The position numbers and the translations under genes were made by a program. From positions 1 through 56,809 of the forward strand of contig NZ_RBZW01000076.1 in NCBI RefSeq assembly GCF_006543045.1: a stretch of DNA of 56,809 nucleotides, given 5' to 3'. Each line of letters opens with the position of its first letter. The stretch's first letter is position 1. The notes under the pieces are model-generated. The model was not told the origin of the DNA. It saw nothing but the letters and a program-made list of their open reading frames with translations, and searched no databases. Origin of the DNA: Salinadaptatus halalkaliphilus. GTDB taxonomy: Archaea > Halobacteriota > Halobacteria > Halobacteriales > Natrialbaceae. Positions 40,300 to 56,809 of the stretch are shown piece after piece.

Positions 40300-41543
40300 C
40301 AGTGACCGCCCGATTCCGCACCGGTGTTCGGGTTCCCGAACCGCGTTAGGGCCTCGAGTTCCTCCTCGGCGACGTCCTCGAAGGCAGCTCGCGCGATAAC
40401 ACGGCGGTGGACCTCGTCGGCGCCGTCGACGATCCGGAACTGGCGGACCGACTCGTAGAAGTCCGAGATCGGAAGGTCCTTGCCGATGCCGTTCGCGCCA
40501 CAACACTGTACCGCAAGATCGATCGCGTCCTGGGTCGCGTTCGCGGTGAATACCTTACACATCGAGACGGGAACTCGCGCTTGATCGCCGGCGGCGATGC
40601 GATCTGCAGCGTCTCGGATCGCCGTCCGAGCGACGTGCAGTTTGGTTTCGGCGTCGGCGATCCGGTGACGAAGCGACTGCTTGTCCGACAGCGTTGAATC
40701 GAATCCACGGCGTTCGCTCGTGTATGCTTTCGCGATCTCGAGCGAACGCTGTGCCATCCCCGAGTAGCGCATGCAGTGGGTGAGTCGGGCCGGTCCGAGT
40801 CGTTCCTGGGCGTGGGTAAATCCCCCGTTCAACTCGCCGAGCAGGTGCTCCTCGGGGACGCGAACGTTCTCGTAGCGGATTTCGGCGTGAGACGCGCCGC
40901 GGTTACCGCCACCCATATGCGGTACGTCACGCACGACGGTGACGCCGTCGGCGTCGGCCGGCACGAGAAAGAGCGAACACCCTTCGTAGGGATGGGCGTC
41001 CTGATCGGTCCGAGCGAGGACGATCAGGATATCCGCCTCGAGGCCCTGGGTGGTCCACCACTTGTGGCCGTCGATGACCCACTCGTCGCCGTCCCGTTCA
41101 GCGGTCGTCTGGATCATTTTCGGGTCCGAGCCGGCACCCTGCATCGGCTCGGTCATCGAGAATCCGGATTTGATCTCGCCAGCGACGAGTGGCTCCAGGT
41201 AGGTCTCCTTTTGGAGTTCATCACCGGCGAGTTCCAACAGGTGCATGTTCCCCTCGTCGGGAGCGTCGACACGCATCGCAACCTGGCCCAGGAGACTGCG
41301 ACCTGCCTCTTCGAACGCTGGCAGGGCGTCCCGGAAATCGAGGCCCATCCCGCCGTATTCCTCGGGAATCTGGGGTGCGTATACGTCGTACTCGCGGGCC
41401 GCCTCCCGAAGATCGGCGACCGTCCCGCTCGAGACGGCCATACCGCCCGCCCGCTCGCGCTCGAGGGGCAAGACGACCTCTTCCATCAAATCGTGAGCGC
41501 GGCTCGCAACCGCCCGTGCTTGTTCTGAGTCGGCATATCGCAT
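40299..41543 (-). CDS. Acyl-CoA dehydrogenase
   Basis: A 414-aa FAD enzyme of fatty-acid or branched-chain acyl-CoA oxidation. FSMTEPMQGAGSDPKMIQTT and GHKWWTTQGLEADILIVLAR are the FAD/substrate loops. ERLGPARLTHCMRYSGMAQR and the CCGANGIGKDLPISDFYESV stretch belong to the C-terminal helical domain. The residue at the usual catalytic Glu position cannot be read confidently by eye. The ATG at 41543 is chosen because the upstream residues are not family-like. A TTTATATCC-type AT-rich block about 65-80 nt upstream may be its promoter. It ends at a palindromic repeat. Confidence 0.88.
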   Translation of the reverse strand: MRYADSEQARAVASRAHDLMEEVVLPLERERAGGMAVSSGTVADLREAAREYDVYAPQIPEEYGGMGLDFRDALPAFEEAGRSLLGQVAMRVDAPDEGNMHLLELAGDELQKETYLEPLVAGEIKSGFSMTEPMQGAGSDPKMIQTTAERDGDEWVIDGHKWWTTQGLEADILIVLARTDQDAHPYEGCSLFLVPADADGVTVVRDVPHMGGGNRGASHAEIRYENVRVPEEHLLGELNGGFTHAQERLGPARLTHCMRYSGMAQRSLEIAKAYTSERRGFDSTLSDKQSLRHRIADAETKLHVARTAIRDAADRIAAGDQARVPVSMCKVFTANATQDAIDLAVQCCGANGIGKDLPISDFYESVRQFRIVDGADEVHRRVIARAAFEDVAEEELEALTRFGNPNTGAESGGH

Positions 41544-41900
41544 ACGAACGCTACAAACGTTGGCGACGTAAGCACAGTTGGGAACTCCCACCAGAGTGGA
41601 ACATGGTAAATATATTTATATCCGATTCCTGACGATATAAAACACCGCCGTATGCTGGGCACGGACGATGGGCTAGTAACAACGACACTCGTGAAACCAT
41701 CTAAATTCCATATAAGTATTCTATATTTGATGTTAGAGAAGGAGGAAATAAATATATTTCTAATAGATATGACCATTCAGAATGCTCTCGGTCCATCCAG
41801 GTGTGCTGGCTAAAATCGGCCATCTGCGAATCGCACCGGATTATCAGAGTTGGTAATCGGCACCTGAATTTTTTGAGGGGTGACTGTTTGGTTGAATCCA
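41544..41900. other. AT-rich divergent promoter region (acyl-CoA dehydrogenase / pil operon)
   Basis: Between the divergent starts, 41590-41790 contains several TATA-like words (TAAATATATTTATAT near 41606-41620, ATATAAG and TATATTT near 41713-41730, AAATATAT near 41750). By count, 41701-41760 is only about 23% G+C, far below its surroundings. I see no gene. The composition suggests promoters, nucleoid-protein binding or foreign DNA. The untranslated leader of the pil operon could exceed 100 nt. Confidence 0.55.
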
Positions 41901-44900
41901 ATGGCTATTGACGAGGCCGACCAGTCGGATGCCGGGGATTTTTCCGAGGGCACGGCAGCCGACGCAGCGTCGGAGGGCGATCATGACCCCCACGGCGGGA
42001 CGGACTCGAAGCCGTCCGTCAGCGTGGGTGAATATACGTGGGCAGATTTTATGGACGAATACGGACACGGCGAGGAGGTATCCGACCTATATGCTTCGAT
42101 ACCGGAACCCTCCGACCAGCTCGGACTCGACACCGACGAAGGCGAGGCCCCGAGAGTACCACGTGGCGACGACTGGCAGGGCGTAAATTTCGACCCTACC
42201 TCCTATCTCGGATTTCATCCTGACGACCTCGAGACGACCCTCGTGCCCGCCGCCGGTTCCGCCGCGAAGACACTCGAGGACCGATTTCTCGAGTACGCCG
42301 ATCCGGCGACGACGCCGGTAGTCAAAGACGTTTGGACGTGGGAACACTACAAGTGGGAGTACTACTACGACGAGGACGGCTCCCGACCGCGAGATAGCAA
42401 CGGCGAGGTCGTCCCCCACGACGGGGAAGACGCACTCGGATTCGATCCAGACACCATCGAAAACCAGCTGTCTGCTGCCGACGACGTGGCGATGGCACTG
42501 GACGAGGTCGTCGAGGACCGGACCGTCACCATTCAGGACGACTTCGACGAAGACGCGTTCTTTGCCAACGCCGACGGGACGACGACCGTCGCCAACCGCT
42601 ACGATCTCGAGAAAGCCGTTCCCGACGCGAAGAAAGTGCACTTCCGGGAGGTCGAGCGTTACTGGGTGAACAAACCCTACGCCTACGTCATCATTTTCCA
42701 TTCGGAGAAAGAAAACGAGAAGAAGTACTACGTCGTCGAACCGTATCTCAACGAGATCGAAACGGAGCTCAAGGAGTTTCTCTCCGGCAAACTTCGAACG
42801 GCGATCAAGTACTCCGAGGAGGGGATCAAACGGAAAGCCAAAGAGGACGGACGCCGATCGGTCATCGAAGACGAAACCAGGCGCCTGTTAAAACGGTATG
42901 ATCTCTTCGAGACGGTATCGGGAACGTCCAGCGGAGGGCTACTCGAATCGTTCAGATCGATCCTCGGCGCCGCCACCAGTGACGATGACGACGACGAGCC
43001 GGCCGATCTACAAGGAATCGAGGCCCGTCCCGAACCGATCATTCTGGCAGAAGACTCCGATACGTTGAACGAGTATCAGGTCGAGAAGCTGCTCTACCTG
43101 CTCAAACGGAACTTCATCGGCTACGAACGGATCGACGGCATCAAACACGACATCAACGTCGAGGACATCTCCTGTGACGGCTACAATTCGCCGGTTTTCG
43201 TCTATCACTCCGAGTACGAACAGATCATCTCGAACATCTACCACGGGAAGGACGAACTCGACGACTTCGTGGTCAAACTCGCACAACGATCCGGGAAGGG
43301 GATCAGCAAACGGCTCCCACAAGTCGACGCGACCCTGCCCGACGGCTCGCGTGCGCAGTTAACCCTCGGCAAGGAAGTTTCCGACCACGGGACGAACTAT
43401 ACGATCCGGCAGTTCAAGGACGTCCCGTTTACCCCGATCGATCTCATCAATTGGAACACGTTCAGCCTGGAGGAGATGGCCTTTCTCTGGCTCTGTATCG
43501 AGAACCACAAGAGCCTGATCTTCGCCGGCGGTACCGCGTCCGGGAAGACAACCTCGCTGAATGCCGTCTCGCTGTTTATCCCGAGCAACGCCAAGATCGT
43601 CTCCATCGAGGACACTCGCGAGGTCGAACTCCCCCAGCGCAACTGGATCGCAAGCGTCACTCGACCATCGTTCTCCGACGACGAACAGGGCGATGTCGAC
43701 GAGTTCGACCTACTCGAGGCCGCGCTCCGACAGCGCCCCGACTACATCGTGATGGGTGAGATCCGCGGTGAAGAAGGTCGAACCCTGTTCCAGGTCATGT
43801 CGACCGGCCACACCACCTACACCACGTTCCACGCCGACTCCGTCGACGAGGTTCTCAAGCGATTCACCACCGATCCGATCAACGTCTCGAAGACGATGTT
43901 CACCGCGCTGGATCTCGTCTCCATCCAGACCCAGACGCGAGTTCAGGGCTCGAAGGTCCGCCGAAACAAGTCCTTGACCGAGATCAACCACTACGAGGCC
44001 GAACACGACGAGATCAACGTCCAGGACGTCTATCAGTGGCAAGCCGAAACCGACGAGTTCCTCAAAATGGGGGACTCGAACACCTTAGAAGAGATCCGAT
44101 TCGACCGCGGATGGAACCGCGACAAACTCGAGGAAGAGCTCTTCAAGCGGGAAGTCATTCTCGCGTATCTCATCAAAAACGGACTCAACACCTACGCCGA
44201 AGTCGCCGCGACGGCCCAGGCCTTCATCAACGATCCCGAGACGATCCTCACGCTCATCGCCAACGGCCAACTCGAGGCGAGTCTCGAGGACCTCAGAGAG
44301 ATGGAAAGCGTCCTCATCGATGTCGATCCCGAAAAGGAAGCACTCGTTCCACGTCCCGATGCGACGACGGAAACGTACAATCTCTCGATGGACATCCTCG
44401 AACGAGCCGAAGAATCGCTATTCGACGAGTATCGCGGGAAGGTTCCAAGTGGTCTCGGGAGCGCACTCGGTGCCGTCGACGCCGACGACACCGTCGAAGT
44501 TGGTTCGGAAGACGGATCGGTGGATTTCGATGGGACGTTCGACGACGACGGCTGGGAGTTCGACGAAACGAGCACGTTCGGTGCCGACGGCGAGTCGACT
44601 GGCGACGAACCTGCCTGGCTCACCGACGACGAGCCGGCTGACTCGACCCCGGTGCCCGCCGACGCATCCACACAGGCAAGCGAGACGCAACCAGCCGCGG
44701 AAGTGACGACAGACGCGACGACGGCCGGTGAATCGACCAGCGGGGATCCACCCGAAGACGAGCCGATCGATGGACTGTTCGACGATATGGGCGACACCCT
44801 CGAGACGCTCGACGGCTCACGGCCTGTCGATACGTCGGGGTCGACATCTACGGACGGCGATTCGATGTTCCCGGACGGCAAACTCGAGACGGTGTTCGAT

Positions 44901-45176
44901 CCGGACGGTGACGACGAGTCAGCTCTCGAGGAACCCGCCACCACTGACGGTCACGATGGCGAATCAGGATCGAACCCGACGCCACCAGTGGACGACCAGT
45001 CCGACCACGATGACGAGTCGATCTTCGGTGAGAGTACTGGTGGCCCATTTAGCGACGACTCGATCGACCTGAGCGAGGAGGGATCGCTGTTCGAGGGCCG
45101 CGAGACCAGAGACGACGACTCGATTTTCGGTGGTGAGGACGAGCGTGGCGAGGACACCGAGGGTCAGGAGCAATGA
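41901..45176 (+). CDS. Large PilB-type secretion ATPase, system 2, with N-terminal duplication and acidic tail
   Basis: A 1091-aa ATPase, about twice the size of the paralogue at 8436. Walker A is GGTASGKT at 543-550, with IVSIEDTREVELP, YIVMGEIRGEEGR and a His box GHTTYTTFHADS. The N-terminal 210 residues hold two related blocks (YTWADFMDEYG with LGFHPDDLETTL, and WTWEHYKWEYYY with LGFDPDTIENQL). The YWVNKPYAYVIIF block lies near 255. Residues after about 855 form a 237-residue acidic tail with recurring short F motifs such as DDESIFGE and DDDSIFGG. It should power the pilus machine built by the downstream PilC-type and pilin-like proteins. I prefer the ATG at 41901; a GTG at 41880 adds seven residues. 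Confidence 0.93.
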   Translation: MAIDEADQSDAGDFSEGTAADAASEGDHDPHGGTDSKPSVSVGEYTWADFMDEYGHGEEVSDLYASIPEPSDQLGLDTDEGEAPRVPRGDDWQGVNFDPTSYLGFHPDDLETTLVPAAGSAAKTLEDRFLEYADPATTPVVKDVWTWEHYKWEYYYDEDGSRPRDSNGEVVPHDGEDALGFDPDTIENQLSAADDVAMALDEVVEDRTVTIQDDFDEDAFFANADGTTTVANRYDLEKAVPDAKKVHFREVERYWVNKPYAYVIIFHSEKENEKKYYVVEPYLNEIETELKEFLSGKLRTAIKYSEEGIKRKAKEDGRRSVIEDETRRLLKRYDLFETVSGTSSGGLLESFRSILGAATSDDDDDEPADLQGIEARPEPIILAEDSDTLNEYQVEKLLYLLKRNFIGYERIDGIKHDINVEDISCDGYNSPVFVYHSEYEQIISNIYHGKDELDDFVVKLAQRSGKGISKRLPQVDATLPDGSRAQLTLGKEVSDHGTNYTIRQFKDVPFTPIDLINWNTFSLEEMAFLWLCIENHKSLIFAGGTASGKTTSLNAVSLFIPSNAKIVSIEDTREVELPQRNWIASVTRPSFSDDEQGDVDEFDLLEAALRQRPDYIVMGEIRGEEGRTLFQVMSTGHTTYTTFHADSVDEVLKRFTTDPINVSKTMFTALDLVSIQTQTRVQGSKVRRNKSLTEINHYEAEHDEINVQDVYQWQAETDEFLKMGDSNTLEEIRFDRGWNRDKLEEELFKREVILAYLIKNGLNTYAEVAATAQAFINDPETILTLIANGQLEASLEDLREMESVLIDVDPEKEALVPRPDATTETYNLSMDILERAEESLFDEYRGKVPSGLGSALGAVDADDTVEVGSEDGSVDFDGTFDDDGWEFDETSTFGADGESTGDEPAWLTDDEPADSTPVPADASTQASETQPAAEVTTDATTAGESTSGDPPEDEPIDGLFDDMGDTLETLDGSRPVDTSGSTSTDGDSMFPDGKLETVFDPDGDDESALEEPATTDGHDGESGSNPTPPVDDQSDHDDESIFGESTGGPFSDDSIDLSEEGSLFEGRETRDDDSIFGGEDERGEDTEGQEQ

Positions 45177-47245
45177 GTCTACAGACAGACGATCGACCGG
45201 CTGCAAGCGGCGTCTCGGCTGGCTCCGACACGCTCGGCGAGCTCTTTTACCCGCTGTACAGTCACCTGTTTAGCGACGATAGCGAGTTCGTCGCCGACGT
45301 CGAAATCAAACTCGCACAGGCACGAATGACCGATACCGTCGAACTCTACCTCTCTCGAGCGATCGGTATCGGGTTCATCAGCGGACTCGCACTGTGGCTG
45401 CTTGGGCTGTTGCTCGGCTACGGCCTGTTCGGGACCGGCATCGTCCGGATCAACCATATCATCGGCATTCCGGTCGGCAGCGATGCAGTGCTCGAGTTCA
45501 TCGAGACCGTCCGCGTTCCCGCCGTCATCGTCGGTATCGGTCTCGTCTTCGGCTCGATCGGGTTCGCGCTCGGGTTCGGTTCGCTGGTCGCTATTCCATA
45601 CTCACGTGCCTCGGCTCGCAAACGCGAGATCAACATGCTCCTGACCGACTCCGTTTCGTTCATGTACGCGCTGTCGGTCGGCGGGCTGAACCAACTCGAG
45701 ATCATCGAGGCAATGTCCGAGGCCGACGATACCTACGGCGAGGTCGCCATGGAGTTTCAAAGTATCGTCAAAGAAACCGAATACTTCGATGTCGACTACC
45801 GGACGGCGATCCGCAAGCAGGCGATCGAGACGCCCAGTGACGAACTGTCGCAGTTTCTGACCGACATGCTCTCGATCATCAACAGCGGCGGTGACATGGA
45901 GAGCTTCCTCGAGGACAAAAAAGAACTCCACATGCGGACCGCAAAACAGGAGCAGGAACTCACCCTCGAGACGCTCGAGTTGTTCGGCGAGATGTACATG
46001 ACGCTGTCGCTGTTCCCGCTGTTGTTGATCATCATCATGGTCGTCATGCAGATGATCCCGGATGCGACCGTCTCCAACGAGATGCTGTATATGACCGTCT
46101 ACGCGCTGATTCCGCTGATGGGGATTGGCTTTCTCGTCCTCGTCTCGACGGTCAAACACGACGAGCCCGGCGACGGCTATCTGACGATGGACGACAGCGA
46201 TCATCGTGTCCAGCGCGAACGGGGAGAGAGCGGGCTGCTCGATCTCGGGCTCGTCGAACAGTTCACCGGCGAACACAGCGTCTTCGATCGCATCAAGAGT
46301 CGCGAGGGGACCCACGAGACGGTCAACGTCCTGAAACAGCCACACATCTTCTTCCGGGACAACCCGCTGTTTACCCTCGCACTGACCGTGCCCATCTCGC
46401 TGGTCGTCGTCGTGATGGCGATGGTTTCGGGCTCCGCACCGCTGTCGTGGGACGACATGATCGCAAACCCGATCTGGGGCACGGTCATCTACGTCTACGT
46501 TCCGCTGTATATCATCGCGATTCCGCTCTCGATCTTTCGCGAGTGGAACGTGCGACACCGAAACGCCGTCGTCAGCCAACTCTCCGAAGACCTGCGCAAA
46601 CTCTCGAGTGCCAACGATACCGGCCTCACGCTGCTGGAGTCGCTGCAGGCCGTCGCGGATACGACGAGTGGCAAACTCGCCCGCGAGTTCGAGTTGATGC
46701 ACACCAAGGTCAACTACGGGACGAGTCTGAAAGAGGCGCTCATCGAGTTCAACAACAAGTATCACATCCCACGACTCGCCCGCTCGACGCGGCTGATCAC
46801 CGAAGCTCAGGAAGCCTCGAACCAGATTTCGGACGTGTTACGCACGGCCGCCCGGGCCAGCGAGAATCACGACGATATCGAACGCGAACGCAAATCCCGC
46901 ACCCGCATGCAGGTCGTGATCATCATCATGACGTTCATGACCGTGCTGGCGGTGATCGCCATCCTCCAGACGCAGTTCATCGAGACGATGGTTGGCCTCG
47001 AGACCGGCGGCGGCGAAGACATCGACACCGGCGGCGCTGGCGGCGGCCAGATGGCGGACGCGGACATGACCGAAAATATCGATGTCCCGATGCTGTCGGT
47101 GTTGTTCTTCCACGCGATCACGATCCAGGGGATCATCTCGGGGCTCATCTGTGGCTACATGCGAGATGCGGACATCCTGAGTGGCCTGAAGTACGTGATC
47201 GTGCTGTCGACGATTGCACTGGTCGGCTGGACGCTGGTCGCCTAA
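45173..47245 (+). CDS. PilC-type membrane platform protein, system 2
   Basis: A 690-aa membrane protein with two T2SSF-like domains. Cytoplasmic helices SLSFMYALSVGG-type regions alternate with helix pairs such as LSLFPLLLIIIMVVMQMI and VVIIIMTFMTVLAVIAIL. It assembles the inner-membrane platform for fibre formation and overlaps the ATPase stop by ATGA. A charged, glycine-rich loop (GGGEDIDTGGAGGGQMADAD) precedes the last helix pair. It is most similar in layout to the protein at 6349 but is part of a complete operon. Confidence 0.92.
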   Translation: MSLQTDDRPAASGVSAGSDTLGELFYPLYSHLFSDDSEFVADVEIKLAQARMTDTVELYLSRAIGIGFISGLALWLLGLLLGYGLFGTGIVRINHIIGIPVGSDAVLEFIETVRVPAVIVGIGLVFGSIGFALGFGSLVAIPYSRASARKREINMLLTDSVSFMYALSVGGLNQLEIIEAMSEADDTYGEVAMEFQSIVKETEYFDVDYRTAIRKQAIETPSDELSQFLTDMLSIINSGGDMESFLEDKKELHMRTAKQEQELTLETLELFGEMYMTLSLFPLLLIIIMVVMQMIPDATVSNEMLYMTVYALIPLMGIGFLVLVSTVKHDEPGDGYLTMDDSDHRVQRERGESGLLDLGLVEQFTGEHSVFDRIKSREGTHETVNVLKQPHIFFRDNPLFTLALTVPISLVVVVMAMVSGSAPLSWDDMIANPIWGTVIYVYVPLYIIAIPLSIFREWNVRHRNAVVSQLSEDLRKLSSANDTGLTLLESLQAVADTTSGKLAREFELMHTKVNYGTSLKEALIEFNNKYHIPRLARSTRLITEAQEASNQISDVLRTAARASENHDDIERERKSRTRMQVVIIIMTFMTVLAVIAILQTQFIETMVGLETGGGEDIDTGGAGGGQMADADMTENIDVPMLSVLFFHAITIQGIISGLICGYMRDADILSGLKYVIVLSTIALVGWTLVA

Positions 47246-47246
47246 C

Positions 47247-47798
47247 ATGACCCAGGGAACACAACGAACGGTTTCGATCGGGTTCGACCCCCGCGCCCAG
47301 ACGAATCAGGACTTCGTCATCGGTATCGGCGTGTTCATCATCGCGGTCGCGTTCGTCTTCACGACGATCCCGGACATCGTCGGCGTCTACTCGGGCACCA
47401 GCGACAGCGGCGATGTCGCACAGGTCGATCGCGTCGCCGGAACGGTCCTCGAGAACGAATCGCTCGAGACGGGGACGCCCAACCAGATCGACGGTGAAGG
47501 ATTCAACCAGACGTTCGTCCAGGAGGGCCTCGACAACAGCTCGCTCGGGTTACGCGCCGACGACGGCTACCGCTTCGACCAGATCAACGTTACGATCGAA
47601 CCGCTCGAGCGCGAGGGTGGCCAGCCACGACCGCTGAATTTGAGCGGCGACGGGGATCCGCTCGCAGCAGGCGATAGATATGACGACCAGTCTGCGGTAA
47701 CGGCGACCCGAATCGTGACGGTGACCGACGTCGACGACGACGAATACCCCGATGTCGACTCGGAACACCCCGTGAGACTCGTCGTGAGGATGTGGTAA
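47247..47798 (+). CDS. Pilin-like single-helix protein 1 of the pil operon
   Basis: A 183-aa protein with one N-terminal helix (DFVIGIGVFIIAVAFVFTTI) behind a short positively charged start, and an acidic exported domain with N-glycosylation-type NQT and NSS sequons. It ends in VRLVVRMW. It begins 1 bp after the PilC-type gene stop. The domain is a haloarchaeal family found in pil operons (DUF7287 from memory). It is probably a minor subunit or assembly factor. Confidence 0.75.
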   Translation: MTQGTQRTVSIGFDPRAQTNQDFVIGIGVFIIAVAFVFTTIPDIVGVYSGTSDSGDVAQVDRVAGTVLENESLETGTPNQIDGEGFNQTFVQEGLDNSSLGLRADDGYRFDQINVTIEPLEREGGQPRPLNLSGDGDPLAAGDRYDDQSAVTATRIVTVTDVDDDEYPDVDSEHPVRLVVRMW

Positions 47799-47799
47799 C

Positions 47800-48384
47800 A
47801 TGTGGGGGACAGATCGGTTCGGCCGGGACGAAACTGACCGCGGACAGGCCTACTCCCTCGAGGGCTTCGCCGCCGCTGCGGTCGTCCTCTTTGCCCTGCT
47901 GTTTGCGATGCAGTCGGTGGTGATCACGCCGGGGACGGGCGGGGCAGTCGATCGAACCTCGCAGGCCCAGATCCAACAGGAGACTCAGGATGCGCTTGTG
48001 GTTGCAGCGCATTCGAACGAGTCGGATCGCGGTAATCTCTCCGTCCTTGTGCACGACTGGGCCGACGGTGATATCGAGGAGTCGATGGATATCGACGATT
48101 TCGAGGACGAGTACACGTTGGGCTACATACTCGAGACCCACGTTGCAGCACCGTCCTATCCCAACGGCTACGAGGTGGAGTTTACCTATCTCAATTCCTC
48201 GGCTGACGGAGACGTAACCACCTCAGACCAAAACCGATCTATCGGCTCGAATATCACGGACCAGAGTGCAGTAACAGCGAGTTATACGATCCCACTATTC
48301 GATGAGACAGAACACGTTCCCGAATACGACGGTAGTAGCGAATCGATTCACAACATTGTGGAGGTGCGCGTAACAGTATGGTAA
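47800..48384 (+). CDS. Pilin-like single-helix protein 2 of the pil operon
   Basis: A 194-aa protein with an N-terminal region RGQAYSLEGFAAAAVVLFAL containing a hydrophobic helix, and an acidic outer domain with NSS, NRS and NIT sequons. It ends in VEVRVTVW, close to the end of the previous protein. It follows the upstream gene by 1 bp and overlaps the next by 7 bp. Family from memory is DUF7288. Its last third is less GC-rich than the first, an early sign of the AT-rich change in the next gene. Confidence 0.75.
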   Translation: MWGTDRFGRDETDRGQAYSLEGFAAAAVVLFALLFAMQSVVITPGTGGAVDRTSQAQIQQETQDALVVAAHSNESDRGNLSVLVHDWADGDIEESMDIDDFEDEYTLGYILETHVAAPSYPNGYEVEFTYLNSSADGDVTTSDQNRSIGSNITDQSAVTASYTIPLFDETEHVPEYDGSSESIHNIVEVRVTVW

Positions 48385-49304
48385 CCGAGAGTACTCGCGA
48401 TCGAGCGCAGGTGATCCTCATCGGTGCGATCGTTATCGCGTTCGTGATCCTCGGCGTCGTCGTCGTGTTGAACGGGTTGGTTCATACGGAGGAAGTGTCC
48501 TCGAGTTCGACAAGTCAAAGTACCACCGATTTAGCTGTCATAGAGTATGAACTTGAACAGGGTATTGCAGGATTAGGAAATGAGACTGTTAATTTGGGCG
48601 AAAATGATGATTTAGCATCTGCAATTGAAGATGCAGATGACGAACAGGATATGAGAGATATCTTTGACTTTGATGAGCCGGAGGACTGGAAAGACAGTGA
48701 GATTATCAAAGATGATTTTTCTAACGACTTTAAAAAAAGTAAGTCTTCTAGTAGAGGAGTAGTTACGAATATCACTGCTGTAGATACGTCCGTAACGATG
48801 GAGGGCGGGTCAAATATTAATGTTCCCGCAAATGAAGATAGAAACGTAATTGATTCAGATGACGAATTTCTTGGAAGAGTATTTGAATTCAAGATCGATT
48901 TTACAGGGAACCAGGAGTTGGATCTCAATATTGAAAATGGAAATGGTGAAACAGTAACCGTAGAGGTTGATGGTAACAACGATGAAATACGGATCAGCAA
49001 CGGTGATAATTGCAATAATGTCGACTTACATCAAGCCGAAATTGATTTTGTATCTGGTGAACTTAATAATGTAGAAGAGTCATGCGATCTTGATGTTATA
49101 GACATTGATTCGTCATACAATGAGATACACATGGATAACAGGGGATCAAGTATAGATGTTGATTTTATTGGAATCGCCGGTTCTAATGACCTAAGTAGCG
49201 ATTTCGAAATTCCGTGGATCTTGGAGATCATATATTCATACGATACCGAGAATATAGAATCGAACAGGTCTGTGGAAATTGATATGTACAGTGAGTTATT
49301 ATGA
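48378..49304 (+). CDS. Pilin-like protein 3 with an AT-rich acidic body
   Basis: A 308-aa protein. The first 40 residues (DRAQVILIGAIVIAFVILGV) are GC-rich and encode a normal helix. From about 48510 to 49300 the DNA falls to roughly 35% G+C by hand count of single lines (48601-48660, 49081-49140) and uses AAT, GAT and ATT heavily. The encoded body is rich in Asp, Asn, Glu and Ile, with many N-glycosylation-type sequons. The neighbours on both sides return to GC-rich. It is a probable minor pilin or surface subunit with a transferred or rapidly changing exposed domain. Confidence 0.8.
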   Translation: MVTESTRDRAQVILIGAIVIAFVILGVVVVLNGLVHTEEVSSSSTSQSTTDLAVIEYELEQGIAGLGNETVNLGENDDLASAIEDADDEQDMRDIFDFDEPEDWKDSEIIKDDFSNDFKKSKSSSRGVVTNITAVDTSVTMEGGSNINVPANEDRNVIDSDDEFLGRVFEFKIDFTGNQELDLNIENGNGETVTVEVDGNNDEIRISNGDNCNNVDLHQAEIDFVSGELNNVEESCDLDVIDIDSSYNEIHMDNRGSSIDVDFIGIAGSNDLSSDFEIPWILEIIYSYDTENIESNRSVEIDMYSELL

Positions 49305-49765
49305 ATGATCGTGCCCTCTCCACTGCGGTCACCCACGTCCTCACGATGGGCATCACCACCATCCTCATCGCGATGTTGCTCATGAGCACCGGGGCGATGC
49401 TCGAGGGCTATAGCGATCGAAGCGCCGACCGGGCGCTCGAGACGGTCGGCGAGCGCGTCGCCGGCGAGATCGAGCGGACGGATCAGCTGGGTGGCGACGA
49501 CGGTAACGCAACCGTCACCACAGAACATCCGCGGACGGTTGCGGGATCGGCGTATACGATCGAACCGCTCGAGACCGACGAGTGCGGGGAGAATACGTTC
49601 CTCGAGCAGGGCCAAAACTGTCTCCGGTTGAGTGCAACTGGGGCCAACGCCGAGAGCTACGTCCCCGTCGCGAACCGGACGGCGATGAACACCAGTAGTT
49701 CGGCGACGGGCGGGACGATCGTAATCGAACACGACGGCGAGGCGGAGGAGATTACACTCAGATGA
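49301..49765 (+). CDS. Pilin-like protein 4 (DUF7266-type)
   Basis: A 154-aa protein starting MNDRALSTAVTHVLTMGITT, an N-terminal helix with a pilin-like RALSTAV start. The outer domain has an NRT and an NTS sequon and acidic strands (GGTIVIEHDGEAEEITLR). It overlaps its neighbours by ATGA at both ends, so it is translationally coupled. It probably inserts in the membrane as a subunit of the pil system. Confidence 0.75.
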   Translation: MNDRALSTAVTHVLTMGITTILIAMLLMSTGAMLEGYSDRSADRALETVGERVAGEIERTDQLGGDDGNATVTTEHPRTVAGSAYTIEPLETDECGENTFLEQGQNCLRLSATGANAESYVPVANRTAMNTSSSATGGTIVIEHDGEAEEITLR

Positions 49766-50550
49766 GAGCCAACAGCCCCATCCCCGACACGGGGACGATG
49801 GACGAGCGGGGCGTTAGCGAGGTGCTGAGTTTCGTCCTGGTCTTTGGCATCATCCTCTCGTCGGTCGTCGTCGTCGGTATGGTCGGCTTCGATTCGATTC
49901 AGAGCTATCAGCAACTCGAGCAACAGGGCAACGCCGAGCGAGCGATGAACGCCTTCGCGGACAACGCGAACGACATCGTCCGATACGACGGGGTCAATCG
50001 CCGCGCGGGTGACCTGACGCTCCGGGAAGGAGTGGTCGATCCGGGTGCGAGTGGCTCAGAGATGAACGTCTCCGTACACGACGGCGGCGACGAACTGTGG
50101 AACTCGTCGGGGACGTACGGCGACGATATCGGCGCGTTCACCTACGAGTCCGAGTCGGGGACGATCGCCTACGAAGGTGGTGCCGTCTTCCGGGAAGCCA
50201 CCGATGGCACCAGCGTCATGCGGACTGATCCGATGGTCACCTGCCGCGACGACGACATCGCGATGCTTTCGCTCGTCGTAATCAACGAGAGCGAGCAGTC
50301 GATTCAGGCGACCGACACCGTCGCGTTCGACATTCGAGAGAACGAAACCAAGAGCACGCGAACCGTATTCGACGATGCGGATACCCTCACGGTGTCGCTA
50401 AACGGGGACGACGGACACGAATCGGGGTGGGAGATGTACTTCGAGCACAACGGGTGGGACGAATCGTCCAACGAGTGGTCCTGTGAATCAGTCGAGCGCG
50501 TCTCTGTCGACATCGTCGAAGTCGATATCAGCTATCCTGAAATCGGCTGA
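49762..50550 (+). CDS. Pilin-like protein 5 (DUF7289-type)
   Basis: A 262-aa protein. DERGVSEVLSFVLVFGIILS resembles the class III signal and helix of archaeal pilins (RGVSPVIG type). The exposed domain has sequons NVS, NSS and NES and contains CRDDD and WSCESVE cysteines that could form a disulfide. It ends the operon, 3 bp before the convergent nuclease-fold-like gene. It is a candidate tip or minor subunit; the family (DUF7289) is from memory. Confidence 0.75.
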   Translation: MRANSPIPDTGTMDERGVSEVLSFVLVFGIILSSVVVVGMVGFDSIQSYQQLEQQGNAERAMNAFADNANDIVRYDGVNRRAGDLTLREGVVDPGASGSEMNVSVHDGGDELWNSSGTYGDDIGAFTYESESGTIAYEGGAVFREATDGTSVMRTDPMVTCRDDDIAMLSLVVINESEQSIQATDTVAFDIRENETKSTRTVFDDADTLTVSLNGDDGHESGWEMYFEHNGWDESSNEWSCESVERVSVDIVEVDISYPEIG

Positions 50551-50553
50551 TCC

Positions 50554-51849
50554 TCAATCGGTGTCCTCCCAATCGCCGGTGAGCATCGCTCGCAACCCGG
50601 CTCGAGACGCGAGCGCCTGCACTCGTCGCCGATGTGTGTCGAGGTCACCGCCGGCCTCGAGGTAGAGTCCGTTCGAGAGTCCTCGCGGATCGTCCATCGA
50701 CGAGCCATCGTCACGTGTTGGCTCGTCGTTCAGGATGGTCCGATCACCGTCCTCGGGTCGCCAGGGAACCCTGATTCCGGAGAGGCCACGCTCGAAGAGA
50801 TACTCCGCAGTCTGGACGAGTGCCCCGTCCGAACTCGAGTGACCGATCGCGCCGATCGAGCCGCGCTCGTTGAAAAAGCGGACGACGTACTCGCTGTTGC
50901 CCGTCTCAGTCGCTGTGGTCGCCGATGGCTCGACCTGATCGTCAGCCAAGCTGTCGTCGCCAGCCGCCGAATCGGCGCCGGGAGACGATGTGGTCGCATC
51001 CGCATCGGGAACGTGGGTCGTCGGGTTGGCGTCGGAACCACTCGAGGCTGTGCTCTCGGCCGAGGGGCTGCCCTCGTCGTCGGCCGAATCGTCGGGCGCC
51101 CCATTCGATCGGTAGCTCGAGCCAGCCGGCGACGAATCGGCGGGTTCGATCGCCGTCGTGTACTCGTCAGTCGTCCCGTCGGTAAACTCGAGGGCGACAT
51201 CGGCGGGTTCGGGGTGGTCGCCCTCGCCCCGGACGAACGAGACGATCAGTTTGTCGAGGAACCGTTCCGTCGCCGACTCGAATTCGCTGTCGTAGGGCTC
51301 GCTCTCGTCGGCGTGGTCCTGGAGCGTCGAGCGGATCGACTCGACGAGCGAGTTACGCTCGGTCGCGAGCTGTCGAGCGACGAACGCGCGGTCGTGATAC
51401 TCGAGATGAGAGTCGAGCGAGCGGCGGGTGAAGTGGTCGATCGAACGCTCGTGGTCGGTGAGTGTGGTGTGGTGACATCCCAACCGATCGATGTCCATCG
51501 TTCCAGCGAGAAAGAGGAAATGCCGTCCGTTCGTGTAGATTGCTCTGTCGACGCCGGTCCAGGCCATCGCCTCGAGCAGGGCGGCCGCTCGAGATTCGGC
51601 AAGCGAGTCCTCGAGGGGTTCGACGGCGACGAAGAGAGCCGGGACCGAGTCGATCGAGAGGACGTACTCGAGGTGCGTGTCGTCGACGGCGACATTCGTC
51701 CGACAGGCGTTCGTATAGACGTTCCATCCGAGGGCGTCGAGAAACGGGTCGACGAAGTGCGCGCGCGTTTCGCAGGCGGTCGTCGGCGGGGCCGTCTCGA
51801 GGAGGCGTCGAGTCCGGCTGACGTACGGGCCGAGGTCGGGACCGGTCAT
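50554..51849 (-). CDS. HsdR-N/nuclease-fold-like protein with acidic linker
   Basis: A 431-aa protein. Residues 1-165 (FVDPFLDALGWNVYTNACRT, HLEYVLSIDSVPALFVAVEP, AIYTNGRHFLFLAG) match the N-terminal restriction-endonuclease-like fold of type I HsdR subunits, with an E-x-V core. The middle 110 residues are low-complexity Ser/Asp/Ala. The C-terminal domain (EYVVRFFNERGSIGAIG, GLYLEAGGDLDTHRRRVQAL) is of unknown fold. There is no helicase domain and no modification or specificity gene, so this is not a restriction system by itself. It lies between the pil operon (convergent) and cheR. Confidence 0.65.
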   Translation of the reverse strand: MTGPDLGPYVSRTRRLLETAPPTTACETRAHFVDPFLDALGWNVYTNACRTNVAVDDTHLEYVLSIDSVPALFVAVEPLEDSLAESRAAALLEAMAWTGVDRAIYTNGRHFLFLAGTMDIDRLGCHHTTLTDHERSIDHFTRRSLDSHLEYHDRAFVARQLATERNSLVESIRSTLQDHADESEPYDSEFESATERFLDKLIVSFVRGEGDHPEPADVALEFTDGTTDEYTTAIEPADSSPAGSSYRSNGAPDDSADDEGSPSAESTASSGSDANPTTHVPDADATTSSPGADSAAGDDSLADDQVEPSATTATETGNSEYVVRFFNERGSIGAIGHSSSDGALVQTAEYLFERGLSGIRVPWRPEDGDRTILNDEPTRDDGSSMDDPRGLSNGLYLEAGGDLDTHRRRVQALASRAGLRAMLTGDWEDTD

Positions 51850-51915: not shown

Positions 51916-52716
51916 TCACTCGCGGCAATAAATGCGAAGCCGCGCGTCTTCGACAGCGAAGGCCGATTGTAGGTTCGGTGGGATCGTTTCGGCCTTGCCA
52001 ATGACGAGGATACCACCCGGTCGAAGCGACTGCGCGATGACCTCGAGCATGGACGCTTTGTAATCGTTGTCGATGTAGATGAAGAGGTTTCGACAGACAA
52101 CCAGATCGAATCCGGATTTTGGCTCGCCGTTGATCAGGTCGTGGCGTTCGAACGAGACGGGACGTTTCACGCGGTCGGTAACGTGGTATGCCCGGTCGTC
52201 GACATCGATGTACTGGTCGTGGTCGTCGAGAAAGTCGAGTTGATCGCCGATATCGACGGTTCGGGATTCCTCGTAGACGCCGCGTCGTGCGGTCTCGAGT
52301 GCGGGTCGGCTGATGTCGGTGCCCAGAACCTCGACGGTATCGGCCTCGAGTCGCCGGTCGTCGTGGACGAGCATCGACAGCGAGTAGGCTTCCCGCCCGT
52401 CTGCACACGCTGCAGACCAGATGCGTATCTCGTCGGTTTCGTCCTCGAGGTGACGAAGTACCTCCCGGATGCCGGCCCAGACATCCGGATTGCGAAAGAA
52501 TTCGGTGACGTTGATGCTCATCGACTCGAGCAGCGCCGTCTGTTCGTCGGCGTTCCGCCGCAGCAACCTCGCGTAGTCGGCGTACCCGTCGCGTTGGGTT
52601 CGGCGGATGCGCGAGGAAATGCGACGATCGAGATAACTATCATTGTAGTGACTCGTCGCAAAGCCGAGTTCGTCTTCGACGAAGGTGAGTATGTCTTCGA
52701 ATGCGCCGTCGGTCAC
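51916..52716 (-). CDS. cheR: Chemotaxis protein methyltransferase CheR
   Basis: A 266-aa SAM-dependent methyltransferase that adds methyl groups to receptor glutamates. INVTEFFRNPD, IRIWSAACADGREAYSLSML (the SAM-binding GxG variant), VLGTDIS and FDLVVCRNLFIYI are the expected motifs. It ends with IGKAETIPPN and a YCRE tail. The start overlaps the cheD stop by ATGA, so it is the last gene of the che operon. Confidence 0.92.
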   Translation of the reverse strand: MTDGAFEDILTFVEDELGFATSHYNDSYLDRRISSRIRRTQRDGYADYARLLRRNADEQTALLESMSINVTEFFRNPDVWAGIREVLRHLEDETDEIRIWSAACADGREAYSLSMLVHDDRRLEADTVEVLGTDISRPALETARRGVYEESRTVDIGDQLDFLDDHDQYIDVDDRAYHVTDRVKRPVSFERHDLINGEPKSGFDLVVCRNLFIYIDNDYKASMLEVIAQSLRPGGILVIGKAETIPPNLQSAFAVEDARLRIYCRE

Positions 52717-53231
52717 AGTCGGTTCACTCCGTGGTCGGCCTCGTCGGCAGCCTTGACCACGAGTTCACCCGTCCCAGGCGTAAACGTCACGGTTCGACCG
52801 TGTTCGCCACCGATGTCTTCGGCGACGATCGGCACGCCGAGTTTCTCGAGTTCGTCTCTGGCCGCGACGACGTTTCGGTGGCCGACGCCGTCGCCGAAGC
52901 TTTCGAACTCGAACATGTCGCTGCCGCCTGCGAGTTTCGCTTCGACGCTCGTGTAACTCGCGCCGCGTTCGACCATTCGCCGTAGCAGTGCCCGGATCGC
53001 CGTGTCAGCGTATTTTCCGGGTTTGCGGTCGCTGTTTGCCATTGCATCACCGTCCGGTAACATCGCGTGGGCGAGACCGCCAATTTCGGTCTCCGGATCG
53101 TACAACGCGATAGCGAGACACGAGCCAAGCCCGTGAGAGGTGAGTGTATCGCCACCATCGCTGACGGCCAGTTCGGAGATACCGACCTTGACCGGCGACG
53201 GTGCGCCCGGTTCGCTGCCGTAGGTCTTCAT
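52713..53231 (-). CDS. cheD: Receptor glutamine deamidase CheD
   Basis: A 172-aa deamidase. SHGLGSCLAIALYD holds the catalytic Cys, GGLAHAMLP the catalytic His, and KLAGGSDMF a conserved loop. It deamidates receptor glutamines and forms a complex with CheC. ATGA overlaps couple it to the double-CheC gene before it and to cheR after it. The acidic loops fit a halophile. Confidence 0.92.
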   Translation of the reverse strand: MKTYGSEPGAPSPVKVGISELAVSDGGDTLTSHGLGSCLAIALYDPETEIGGLAHAMLPDGDAMANSDRKPGKYADTAIRALLRRMVERGASYTSVEAKLAGGSDMFEFESFGDGVGHRNVVAARDELEKLGVPIVAEDIGGEHGRTVTFTPGTGELVVKAADEADHGVNRL

Positions 53232-54487
53232 GATTGGTCGATTTCTTGGAATTCCGCAGTCGTCGGCGCGTCCTCGATTCGATCGGTGTCGAGATCGTTC
53301 AACGCGCGCTCGAGGTCGGATTCGTCGGGGATCGCATACACTTCACAGTCGAATGCCTGGCCGTCGGCGACGACGACCGTGTCGAAGACGAAGGCATACT
53401 CCTGGTGTTCGCCGAGTTGGATGATAACGGGATCGACGGCTGCCGTCCCCATATCGTGGATGAATTCGGGGGTCGAGTGATCGATCGTCGTATCCAGAAC
53501 GTTCGCCCAGCCATCGAGAAAGCCACTGGCCATGATGTTGCCCAGTTCGGTGATCGCGCTGCGGCCCATCTCGTCGAACTCGTCGGAGTCGACCGACATC
53601 GGTACCATCGCGTCGACGATCTCGTGGGCCGAGTCCTCGTCGAACAAAAACAGCAGGTAGCCACTCGGGATGCCGTCGAATTCGAACGCGACGCCAACCA
53701 GTTTTTCGTCCGGTACCTGCTCGGAAATCGCCTCGAGCGAGACGAAGTTCAGCCGCCGGATGTCGACGCTCGTCTCGATACCGGTCAGCGTCGTCGCGGC
53801 TTTGGCCATCTCCTCGGCACCGCGTTCGGCCATACGGTCGAAACCGTCGAGTTTGTCGTACTCGATACCGTCGCTGGTCCGGAGACGGTCTAACAACGTC
53901 GCCATCGAATCCCGCGTCGGAAACAGGAAATGATCGAACTCGATTTCGGCGTCGAGCGTCTCGATCCGGCTCTGAAAGAGCAACGCAAGATCGTCGTCTG
54001 TCGGGGCGTCATCAACATCGTCGACGAACGGACCCGCCGAATCACCCTCGACGAACTCCGGCGTCGACATATCGATGACCGACTCCAAGACGTCCGCCCA
54101 GCCGTCGATGAACCCGCTGTTCATCACCTGTCCGACCTCCGTGACGGCGCTTTTGGACATCTGGTTGAACTCGCTCTCGTCGGCATCGATATCGCCCTCG
54201 AGATGCGATTCCGCGAGTAATGCGTCGACGATTTGCCGGGCATCGCCGCGGTCGAAGACGACAATCGAGTGGCCCTCGATTGCACCGCTCAGACCGACCC
54301 GAACACCGACGTTATCCGACGAATCCGCCAAATCCCGACGTATCTCTCGGCCGCGCATGAAGTTCAACTTCGTGACACCGACTCGCGTCTCGACGTCGGT
54401 CATGTGGGTGAGTCGGCCTGCGGCGAGTCCGGTCCCTTCTCGAGCCATTCGGTAGAACGTCCCGAGCGTATTGACATCGAGTTTCAT
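53228..54487 (-). CDS. cheC: Tandem-domain CheC
   Basis: A 419-aa protein made of two CheC domains. The first has SAVTEVGQVMNSGFIDGWAD, in which the E-x2-N phosphatase pair reads E-x2-Q. The second has SAITELGNIMASGFLDGWAN with the normal E-x2-N. The first site is therefore probably weakened, and the second should dephosphorylate CheY-P. The linker between the domains is acidic. Overlap with both neighbours by ATGA implies one coupled message. Bacterial CheC is about 200 aa, so this is a fused duplicate. Confidence 0.92.
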   Translation of the reverse strand: MKLDVNTLGTFYRMAREGTGLAAGRLTHMTDVETRVGVTKLNFMRGREIRRDLADSSDNVGVRVGLSGAIEGHSIVVFDRGDARQIVDALLAESHLEGDIDADESEFNQMSKSAVTEVGQVMNSGFIDGWADVLESVIDMSTPEFVEGDSAGPFVDDVDDAPTDDDLALLFQSRIETLDAEIEFDHFLFPTRDSMATLLDRLRTSDGIEYDKLDGFDRMAERGAEEMAKAATTLTGIETSVDIRRLNFVSLEAISEQVPDEKLVGVAFEFDGIPSGYLLFLFDEDSAHEIVDAMVPMSVDSDEFDEMGRSAITELGNIMASGFLDGWANVLDTTIDHSTPEFIHDMGTAAVDPVIIQLGEHQEYAFVFDTVVVADGQAFDCEVYAIPDESDLERALNDLDTDRIEDAPTTAEFQEIDQS

Positions 54488-55089
54488 GTCGTCTGTATGT
54501 CGATATCGTTGACCATTTCGACGAACTCTGCCAAGTCCGGAAACGCGTATATTTCGGCCTCGATCTGATAGCTCGGCACCGTCAGATCCGAGTCGAAAAA
54601 CAGGGCCAGATCGTCGTCGCCGAGGTTTGCCGTTCGGGTGACGACCTCCTCACCCGGTGCGTAGACGAGTTGCGGTGCCGCGACATCGATCACCATCCCG
54701 AGGACATCCGCCCAACCGTCGATGAAGCCACTGGCCATCATGTTGCCCATCTCCTCGACGGCGCTACGGGCCATCTTGCCGGAGACATCGGACATGTCGT
54801 CGACGACATCGTTTAACATGATCGCCGTGATCTTCTTGGCACTCGCTTCGGGGAACAACACGAGGATGTGGCCGTGTGGCGGATCGAGCAACCGGACGCG
54901 GACACCGACGCGCTTGCCGGGTTCCAGTTGGGAGCCGATATCGTCGACATCGATGAAGTTCGTCTTCGTGACCTCCATCTGGGCGTCTTCACCGGTCAGT
55001 TTCCCCATGTTATCGGCAACGCCGTTCGTGCCAACTTTCGCCATCTCGTTTATGAAGCTCAGCTTCCGGATATCGACCATCAACGTCAT
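54484..55089 (-). CDS. cheC: Single-domain CheC
   Basis: A 201-aa protein with one CheC domain. SAVEEMGNMMASGFIDGWAD has the intact E-x2-N catalytic pair. It is 28 nt after cheA. Together with the two-domain protein the operon encodes three CheC domains, of which two appear fully active. The start could be the ATG at 55089 or the one at 55080, which differ by three residues. Confidence 0.9.
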   Translation of the reverse strand: MTLMVDIRKLSFINEMAKVGTNGVADNMGKLTGEDAQMEVTKTNFIDVDDIGSQLEPGKRVGVRVRLLDPPHGHILVLFPEASAKKITAIMLNDVVDDMSDVSGKMARSAVEEMGNMMASGFIDGWADVLGMVIDVAAPQLVYAPGEEVVTRTANLGDDDLALFFDSDLTVPSYQIEAEIYAFPDLAEFVEMVNDIDIQTT

Positions 55090-55117
55090 CGCTGCCTCCG
55101 TTGGTGTTGGTGTTTGA

Positions 55118-56809
55118 TCATAGTGTTGTCACATCTAGAATGGTTACGACCTCGCCTCTACCACGAACCGTTGCACCACTGATACCGGGAATATCGCGCA
55201 TGAATCCTTCGAACGGTTTGACGACGACCTCCTGCTGGCCACGGACGGAGTCACACTCGAGCGCAACCGGACGAACGTCGTCGCGAATCCGTACGAGCAT
55301 TCCGTTCTCGGCGTCGCTCGATGGTGTCTCGAGTTCGTCGGCCAGCGAAAGGACCGAATAGCGTTCGTCGCCGACGGCCAACACGGATTCGCCATCGACG
55401 GTCTCGGCTGCCTCGACCGGTTCGACGTCGTGAACAGCAGTCGTCGGGATGCCGAACTCCTCGCCGCCACACTCGACGAACAACACGTCGTCGATCGCGA
55501 GCGAGACCGGCAGCGTCATCGTGACCGTCGTTCCCGATCCAGGCTCACTGTCGACCGAAATCGTGCCGTCGAGTTCCGTTACCGTCCGTTCGACGACATC
55601 CATTCCCACCCCGCGACCGCTCACGTCGGTCACTTCCTCGGCTGTCGAGAGGCCGGGATGGAAGACGAGTTCGAACGCCTCGTCGTCCGACAGCGACCGC
55701 GCTTCGTCTTCGGTGATGACACCGGCGTCGACGGCTTCGGCGGTAAGCTGATCCGGGTCGAGACCGCGGCCATCATCGGAGACCGTGATCGTCACCTGAT
55801 CGCGTGTGCGGGTCGCTCGCACCTCGATCTGTCCTTCGCGTGGCTTGGTGGCAGCGTCGCGCTCTTCGGGTGGCTCGATGCCATGATCGACGGCGTTTCG
55901 AACCAGGTGAACCAGCGGATCCCGGAGCCGATCGAGGATCGTTCGATCGATTTCGACATCGGAACCACGGATATCGATGGCAACCTCTTTGTCCTGTTCA
56001 CGGGCGACATCTCGAACGACGCGTGGCAGCCGGTTCGTCACCGTTTCGACCGGGACGAGCCGAACGTCCATCACCGTTCCCTGGAGATCGGTCAACAGAT
56101 CCTCGAGATCGTCGAGCTCCGTATCGATCGCGTCCAGATCGAGATCGTTGTCGACGGCGTGACGAAGCCGGACGCGGCTCGTTACCAGTCCTTCGACCAA
56201 GTTGAGCAAGTCGTCGATCTGTTCGACATCGACACGGACCGACTGGCTCTCGTTCTCGATCGTCTCTTCGTCGTCGCGGTCGATCGAATCGGGAACAGTA
56301 AGCTCGGGAATCTCGAGATCAGGCTCCTCGACGACTGTGACGAGTTGCTCGTCCGCAGCCGTCGATTCCTCGTCTTCAGAGCCTGTCTCGGCCGTATCGA
56401 ACCATTCCTCGTCCTCCAACGACGTCTCGTCGAGGGCATCGGTACCGAAGGTTTCTTCGAAGGAGTCCCCGGAGTCGTCCTCGAGATCGAGCAGTTCGAC
56501 TGGATCGTCTTCGACCGCCTCGGACGAAGGCGGCGCGTCCGTCCCCTCGAACTCGGTTTCGGTCGCCCCCCTACTCGAGCCCGCTGGCGCCGACGCCGTC
56601 CCGTCCGATTCGGTCGAGTCGCTCGAGTCCCCGAGTTCCTCCGGATCTGACTCTTTCGTGGCGTCGTCTCGAACGGTCCAGTCGTCGACACCACCAGCCT
56701 CGGACGTATCGAACGAGTCGGCAGTCTCCTCGAACGAATCATCGAAGTCGGTCTCGGACGTATCGAACGAGCCGGCAGTCTCCTCGAACGAGTCATCGAA
56801 GTCGGTCTC
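55118..56809 (-). CDS. cheA: Chemotaxis histidine kinase CheA (N-terminus beyond window)
   Basis: The visible 563 codons run from the window edge to the stop at 55118. From the edge come an acidic linker with two 18-residue repeats, further acidic sequence, then the P3 dimerisation helices (LLNLVEGLVTSRVRLRHAV). P4 follows with an N-box HLVRNAVDHGIE, G1 DDGRGLD and G2 GRGVGMD, then P5, a CheW-like coupling domain (AIDDVLFVECGGEEFGIPTT). The phospho-His P1 domain lies outside the window. The gene is the first of the che operon seen here and is followed by cheC. The apparent Met in the frame near 56419 is a TTG inside the linker, not a start. Confidence 0.93.
   Translation of the reverse strand, partial: ETDFDDSFEETAGSFDTSETDFDDSFEETADSFDTSEAGGVDDWTVRDDATKESDPEELGDSSDSTESDGTASAPAGSSRGATETEFEGTDAPPSSEAVEDDPVELLDLEDDSGDSFEETFGTDALDETSLEDEEWFDTAETGSEDEESTAADEQLVTVVEEPDLEIPELTVPDSIDRDDEETIENESQSVRVDVEQIDDLLNLVEGLVTSRVRLRHAVDNDLDLDAIDTELDDLEDLLTDLQGTVMDVRLVPVETVTNRLPRVVRDVAREQDKEVAIDIRGSDVEIDRTILDRLRDPLVHLVRNAVDHGIEPPEERDAATKPREGQIEVRATRTRDQVTITVSDDGRGLDPDQLTAEAVDAGVITEDEARSLSDDEAFELVFHPGLSTAEEVTDVSGRGVGMDVVERTVTELDGTISVDSEPGSGTTVTMTLPVSLAIDDVLFVECGGEEFGIPTTAVHDVEPVEAAETVDGESVLAVGDERYSVLSLADELETPSSDAENGMLVRIRDDVRPVALECDSVRGQQEVVVKPFEGFMRDIPGISGATVRGRGEVVTILDVTTL
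56701..56809 (-). repeat. 54-bp tandem repeat in cheA (18-residue units)
   Basis: Two units, 56701-56754 and 56755-56808, are identical except for a few bases and encode TDFDDSFEETADSFDTSE-like peptides, acidic with regularly placed Phe. The array reaches the window edge, so more units may follow. In-frame length preserves the CheA linker. Confidence 0.85.

Follow-up and report, generated by a model that had tools for sequence, protein, structure and literature searches.

What has made most of a single gene AT-rich inside a GC-rich pilin operon of Salinadaptatus halalkaliphilus, and what does this tell about the encoded protein? The question is raised by a contig of 56,809 nucleotides (NZ_RBZW01000076.1), the whole of which was analyzed and is called the window here. 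Positions 48498-49304, from codon 41 to the stop codon of the gene, have 37% G+C, compared with 62% for the window, and the gene region (48378-49304) is the sole spot in the 56.8 kb where a 750-base segment falls below 45% GC. The gene and its neighbors, with the matches on which their names are based, are as follows.

41880..45176, plus strand: PilB3-type assembly ATPase (T2SSE); Pfam T2SSE, 1e-31; PilB3_C, 2e-7 (31.5 bits, above the cut-off of 27); PilB3_N, 2e-5 (25.0 bits, below the cut-off of 27)
45173..47245, plus strand: PilC3-type membrane platform protein (T2SSF); Pfam T2SSF, 2e-27 (95.9 bits)
47247..47798, plus strand: minor pilin-like, DUF7287; Pfam PF23958, 7e-38
47800..48384, plus strand: minor pilin-like, DUF7288; Pfam PF23959, 2e-33; its C-terminal half is variable in sister pairs (identity profile) and mildly AT-rich in the window (GC3s)
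48378..49304, plus strand: predicted hypervariable minor prepilin, DUF7261 type; open reading frame, N-terminal DUF7261 match, prepilin motif in orthologs
48378..48497, plus strand: its conserved signal peptide and N-terminal helix, codons 1-40, GC about 0.57
48498..49304, plus strand: its variable AT-rich head, codons 41-308 plus stop
48822..49214, plus strand: inserted beta-sandwich module of the head, residues 149-279; a gap in 52 short orthologs, with AF2 beta strands over 141-266 and a block pLDDT of about 65-90
49301..49765, plus strand: minor pilin-like, DUF7266, the downstream conserved edge; Pfam PF23928, 3e-21; divergence tracts stop in its first 14-25 codons (three Natrialba pairs)
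49762..50550, plus strand: minor pilin-like, DUF7289; Pfam PF23960, 5e-50

All seven genes of the operon (PilB3, PilC3, DUF7287, DUF7288, DUF7261, DUF7266 and DUF7289) are present in this order, with a PilB3-like ATPase and a T2SSF protein adjacent to the minor pilins as in a PilB3-PilC3 pilus operon. The DUF7261-type gene is a single open reading frame of 308 amino acids. It shares 7 nt with DUF7288 at its upstream end and 4 nt with DUF7266 at its downstream end.

Several features were observed around these genes. A short AT-rich stretch at 41500-41949 (GC 0.44-0.45), between an upstream minus-strand gene and pilB3, is probably the operon promoter region. Past PilB3_C, the ATPase continues for about 300 more residues into a long C-terminal extension that is acidic and of low complexity (44253-45176). 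Near the downstream end of the operon, the minus strand carries the chemotaxis genes cheR, cheD, two cheC-like genes and cheA (51916-56809), and one gene without a Pfam match (50554-51849) lies between these and the pilins.

The first 30 codons of the DUF7261-type gene have a GC of 0.59 and a GC3 of 0.77, while the remainder runs at GC 0.26-0.44 up to the stop codon, with the drop beginning around codons 31-40. For the whole gene, GC is 0.40 and GC3 is 0.39, compared with 0.57-0.63 and 0.67-0.82, respectively, in the six other genes of the operon. The codon adaptation index (CAI) of codons 41-308 is 0.31, compared with 0.69 +/- 0.036 in equal-length windows of the neighboring genes (z = -10.5), and it is back to 0.67 in DUF7266. 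The initial annotation had described an AT-rich body in a pilin-like gene with a GC-rich helix start and a composition that recovers at the next gene. The GC, GC3 and CAI profiles bear out the AT-rich body and the recovery, which falls in the first codons of DUF7266. The GC-rich start is also seen, with the refinement that it gives way at codons 31-40 and that the C-terminal half of DUF7288 is already mildly AT-rich (GC 0.51, GC3s 0.60).

The description as pilin-like also held, as the gene starts with a prepilin signal peptide (DRAQVILIGAIVIAFVILG...). The class III prepilin motif R[AG]Q[VILM] of archaeal type IV prepilins was found in 101 of 101 orthologs and reads RAQV in the window. All of them fit the general archaeal pattern, in which [KRDE][GA] precedes a FlaFind-type pair of residues and an N-terminal hydrophobic stretch. 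The window protein matched Pfam DUF7261 (PF23922) in its N-terminal part only, with 26.2 bits against a gathering cut-off of 27 bits, and its provisional name, DUF7261-type, is given from position and N-terminal homology only. The same model was matched at E<=1e-3 by 34 of 35 orthologs, with the Natrialba hulunbeirensis protein (L037) at 26.5 bits. We predict that its product is a minor type IV prepilin of an adhesion-type pilus built by PilB3 and PilC3, and that it would be cleaved by prepilin peptidase and assembled into the filament.

The AF2 model of the window protein has a helix at residues 7-40 and strands from residue 127 onward (mean pLDDT 68), and the model of the N. hulunbeirensis ortholog has the same layout (mean pLDDT 82). 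Both models thus show the long N-terminal helix and the beta-rich head of archaeal type IV prepilins. When lengths were counted from the R of the prepilin motif, the orthologs fell into three classes of about 140, 275 and 450 residues. Since residues 149-279 of the window protein are missing from the 52 orthologs of the short class, the long class carries an inserted beta-sandwich module; more than half of the orthologous genes are without this module of about 130 residues, which the window gene carries. A reference tree of 99 full-length PilC proteins, one from each of 99 species, requires a minimum of 15 changes between length classes. In structure comparisons, the module of the window model (141-266) matched galectin and concanavalin-like sandwiches, among them galectins, GH32 C-domains and 7oa8 (S. 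sanguinis PilC), with Z scores of 5-8, such as common arrangements also give. The more confident ortholog model gave a best Z of 5.1, with no galectin- or concanavalin-like family among its matches. A lectin role of the module, which the window model suggests and the better ortholog model does not reproduce, is therefore only a lead. A sequence search against solved structures gave no match.

The longest orthologs, of about 450 amino acids, were observed in Natrinema pallidum, N. gari and N. altunense (L056:9724-11100, L057:9715-11088 and L058:9721-11070, respectively). They have an added C-terminal repeat region with GDVxxDGxVxI-like repeats that resembles polymer-forming beta-helix repeats, and L056 and L058 differ mainly in this added part. 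In another genome (G035), the DUF7261 ortholog (L182) is cut to 60 amino acids by a stop or frameshift, and the rest of the operon is intact.

The pilin operon was found in 118 of the 125 Natrialbaceae genomes searched, sampled at one genome per species; 101 operons were analyzed, and the DUF7261 gene was present in every one. Across the family, the DUF7261 head is the fastest-changing part of the operon. Among 63 close species pairs (PilC at least 93% identical), the head was the least conserved part in 53, and its median identity was 53%, compared with 94% for the first 48 codons of the same gene, 97% for PilC, 83% for the next gene (DUF7266) and 80-85% for the other four pilins. The initial annotation had proposed a hypervariable exposed domain in a fixed operon. 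For the gene family, this proposal is strongly supported by these pairs and by the sharp edges, saturated synonymous sites and tree conflict described below: when the locus is compared across relatives, in the close pairs and within Natrialba, the bodies differ or are swapped and the flanks are kept.

A different pattern was observed between the operons L134 and L151 on one side and L164 and L175 on the other (genomes G131, G127, G130 and G054). Their PilC proteins are 95-97% identical and all five minor pilins are 51-65% identical, pointing to a possible replacement of the whole minor-pilin block.

We think it likely that the gene encodes a minor prepilin with a fixed anchor and a hypervariable, species-swapped exposed head, in which AT drift is a by-product. 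The signal peptide and N-terminal helix are fixed and would anchor the subunit in the filament or a tip complex, and the exposed head, often with the inserted beta-sandwich module, is hypervariable. At least in Natrialba, recombination enters through conserved DNA on both sides of the head, namely the N-helix codons and the first codons of the pilin gene that follows. The pilus would use the head for adhesion or recognition, with diversifying selection coming perhaps from viruses or from glycans of partners and surfaces, and divergent heads would drift toward an AT-rich mutational equilibrium.

The last of these steps was approached through the composition of the whole operon. Over all 101 orthologs, the GC of the head was lower than that of PilC by a mean of 0.05 (5.2 points; SD 0.047), and it was the lower of the two in 86. 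In alignments of six genes from 95 operons, all of one operon type only, third-position synonymous GC relative to the PilC of each species fell with column entropy (rho -0.80, 172 ten-column bins), and the correlation was -0.66 when PilC and DUF7261 were left out. A mutation-accumulation study of Halobacterium placed the mutational equilibrium at about 20% GC, compared with 66% for the genome (PMC9997560). With such a low equilibrium, sequence that is freed from the force keeping conserved DNA GC-rich should drift to AT. Since synonymous GC falls as variability rises across the operon, low GC is not by itself a foreign signature, and the earlier reading of low GC as a sign of transfer finds no support here. 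We infer that the AT bias is a by-product, a drift to the AT-rich mutational equilibrium in sequence too divergent to stay GC-rich, with the window as the strongest case. The force that holds conserved DNA GC-rich may be a recombination-linked repair bias or codon selection, and the link between GC and variability could reflect codon selection at conserved sites.

Alternatively, the window head could be a recent import from an unsampled low-GC donor, either a low-GC haloarchaeon or a mobile element, and its composition would then be a foreign signature. The window head is the most extreme of the 101 orthologs (GC 0.22 below PilC), its CAI deviates by the z score given above, and head swapping does happen in the family. 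However, its closest relatives are the heads encoded at this locus in Natrarchaeobius and Natrialba swarupiae, at 28-32% identity (31-32% for the nearest) and with a GC of 0.51-0.58. A search of 392 genomes of the order gave no relative in any other family, plasmids, phages and viral contigs gave none either, and none of these sets yielded a low-GC donor. Furthermore, every pilin of the operon follows the same gradient, with AT-richness climbing steadily as variability increases. We consider this import unlikely, and a foreign mobile origin was rejected, as the searches of plasmids, phages and viral contigs gave no relative of the head. A transferred body had been proposed as one of two options; transfer is shown between Natrialba species, as described below, but not for the window head, which has a distant homolog at the same locus elsewhere.

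The window head may instead have simply followed its lineage together with Natrarchaeobius and become AT-rich by relaxed constraint, without functional meaning. The window DUF7287, DUF7288 and DUF7289 group with Natrarchaeobius (support 99, 100 and 99, respectively), where the best matches of the head are also found. Against such drift, the gene keeps an uninterrupted reading frame, its signal peptide and its fold, and heads diversify beyond the rest of the operon across the family; we regard it as somewhat less probable than the import.

The trees of the other operon genes were in conflict. The window PilC groups with those of four other genomes (G016, G041, G058 and G021; support 99), and its placement with Natrarchaeobius was rejected by the AU test (p=0.009). 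Conversely, the PilC grouping was rejected by DUF7287, DUF7288 and DUF7289 (p 0.006, 0.031 and 0.0002, respectively); DUF7266 leans likewise to Natrarchaeobius, with a p of 0.11 for the PilC grouping. By these conflicting phylogenies, the window operon is a mosaic at the boundary between PilC and the pilins (47245-47247), in which either PilC or the pilin block would have moved. A horizontal origin of the whole minor-pilin block of the window was not sustained, as rpoB leans to Natrarchaeobius, the same side as the pilins, with weak support (54/77).

Since the window genus is represented by one genome, the evidence for exchange between species comes from Natrialba, in which whole heads have been swapped by recombination. 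Between Natrialba hulunbeirensis (L117) and Natrialba SSL1 (L122), successive 60-base blocks are 100, 100, 100, 100 and 90% identical; identity then drops to 36-60% until shortly before the gene ends, and rises again to 93-98%. In this pair, dS is 0.24 for PilC, 0.03 for the N-helix and saturated for the head. Values of dS above 1 depend on heads that align poorly, whereas the tract test was restricted to identical residues and the AU test to protein. The tract test, which searches for the stretch with the most elevated synonymous difference and was run with 60 permutations, placed a tract from codon 57 of DUF7261 to codon 25 of DUF7266, with a synonymous difference of 0.69 inside and 0.18 outside (0 of 60 permutations). 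A second pair (L104/L126) had a tract from codon 60 of DUF7261 to codon 14 of DUF7266, and N. taiwanensis and N. aegyptia had one from codon 89 of DUF7288 to codon 19 of DUF7266. The control pair N. aegyptia and N. asiatica (L109/L116), which shares a head, had no head tract in the same scan. Among seven Natrialba species, the PilC tree joined L117 and L122 (95/95), while in the head tree L117 has L126 as its partner and L122 has L104 (support 95 for both pairs). Forcing the heads into the PilC topology was rejected (AU p=0.0001). The saturated synonymous sites, the tract edges and the rejected topology together demonstrate that heads were exchanged between Natrialba species by recombination.

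These data also bear on the idea that there is no exchange and that positive or relaxed selection alone makes heads evolve rapidly where they stand. In two pairs (L127/L140 and L120/L127), the heads differ by 32-37% in protein at a dS of only 0.24-0.39, indicating that in-place diversification occurs too, and head similarity is highest within genera. In Natrialba, however, saturated synonymous sites are flanked by near-identical DNA and the topology is rejected, and selection on the protein does not raise synonymous divergence. In-place evolution is thus refuted as the sole cause in Natrialba and remains a contributor elsewhere; as a general account without exchange we find it doubtful, more so than lineage drift in the window. 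Programmed surface variation within one genome, by silent cassettes or an invertible or diversity-generating element, would fit the sharp edges at the conserved N-helix, as in cassette systems, but is highly improbable: the window genome has no second head copy at E<=1, and when two other heads were searched in 125 genomes, each genome gave a single location, which coincided with the pilin operon wherever that had been mapped. A second copy and silent cassettes were rejected on these grounds, and for the surface-variation mechanism suggested initially, no on-off or cassette switching inside one genome was found.

A wider form of the fixed-anchor, swapped-head explanation is put forward tentatively, as possible rather than likely. 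Haloarchaea may share a multi-species pool of interchangeable tip-pilin heads, exchanged by homologous recombination via conserved flanks under diversifying selection; the heads would escape the recombination-linked forces that keep GC high and drift to AT, so that local AT-richness would mark fast-swapped surface domains.

Several known systems resemble the one proposed here. Among archaea, the nearest precedent for a surface domain that recombines between species is VARTIG of Thermococcales, whose authors looked for analogues in other archaea and found none closely resembling it (Makarova et al. 2021, PMC8416519). As in VARTIG, an archaeal surface protein has a hypervariable distal domain, which in Natrialba recombines between species and not within a genome. 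In contrast, VARTIG modules are large Ig-domain proteins in variable, shuffled loci, whereas the protein described here is a minor pilin of 308 amino acids, its type IV pilus operon is fixed, and the recombination edges are resolved. The minor pilins PilB and PilC of Streptococcus sanguinis (PMC8179133, PMC9934059) likewise combine a short conserved pilin part with an extra module; in S. sanguinis the modules are adhesive and the minor pilins form a tip complex (PMC9934059). Unlike in those pilins, the module here is inserted inside the head before the last strands, and no sequence relation to solved structures was found. In UpsA of Sulfolobales, also an archaeal type IV pilin, a poorly conserved region determines which S-layer glycans are recognized, in a species-specific way (van Wolferen et al. 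2020, PMC7064770), but UpsA is a proposed major, UV-induced crenarchaeal pilin, whereas DUF7261 belongs to a euryarchaeal PilB3 operon and has a putative function. By analogy with these systems, the subunit is probably located at the tip, with the head as a recognition or adhesion surface.

The PilB3-PilC3 pilus of Haloferax volcanii is built with an ATPase and a platform protein of the type seen in the window (PilB3_C profile), and its pilB/pilC mutants have adhesion defects (PMC6491452). Variability of the DUF7261-subunit head was not found described in the literature searched. No paper naming DUF7261 was retrieved, nor was a system of hypervariable haloarchaeal pilins found described in those parts of the literature that were accessible to the search.

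The analysis identifies which subunit varies most in a haloarchaeal pilus that is very common. The exposed head of this subunit is exchanged between species, at least in Natrialba, and a surface that recognizes, or is recognized by, viruses, partners or surfaces would be expected to behave in this way. The relation between GC and variability warns that AT-rich patches in haloarchaeal genomes are not to be taken as foreign DNA. One small gene would provide a direct experimental handle on how haloarchaea recognize cells or get recognized.
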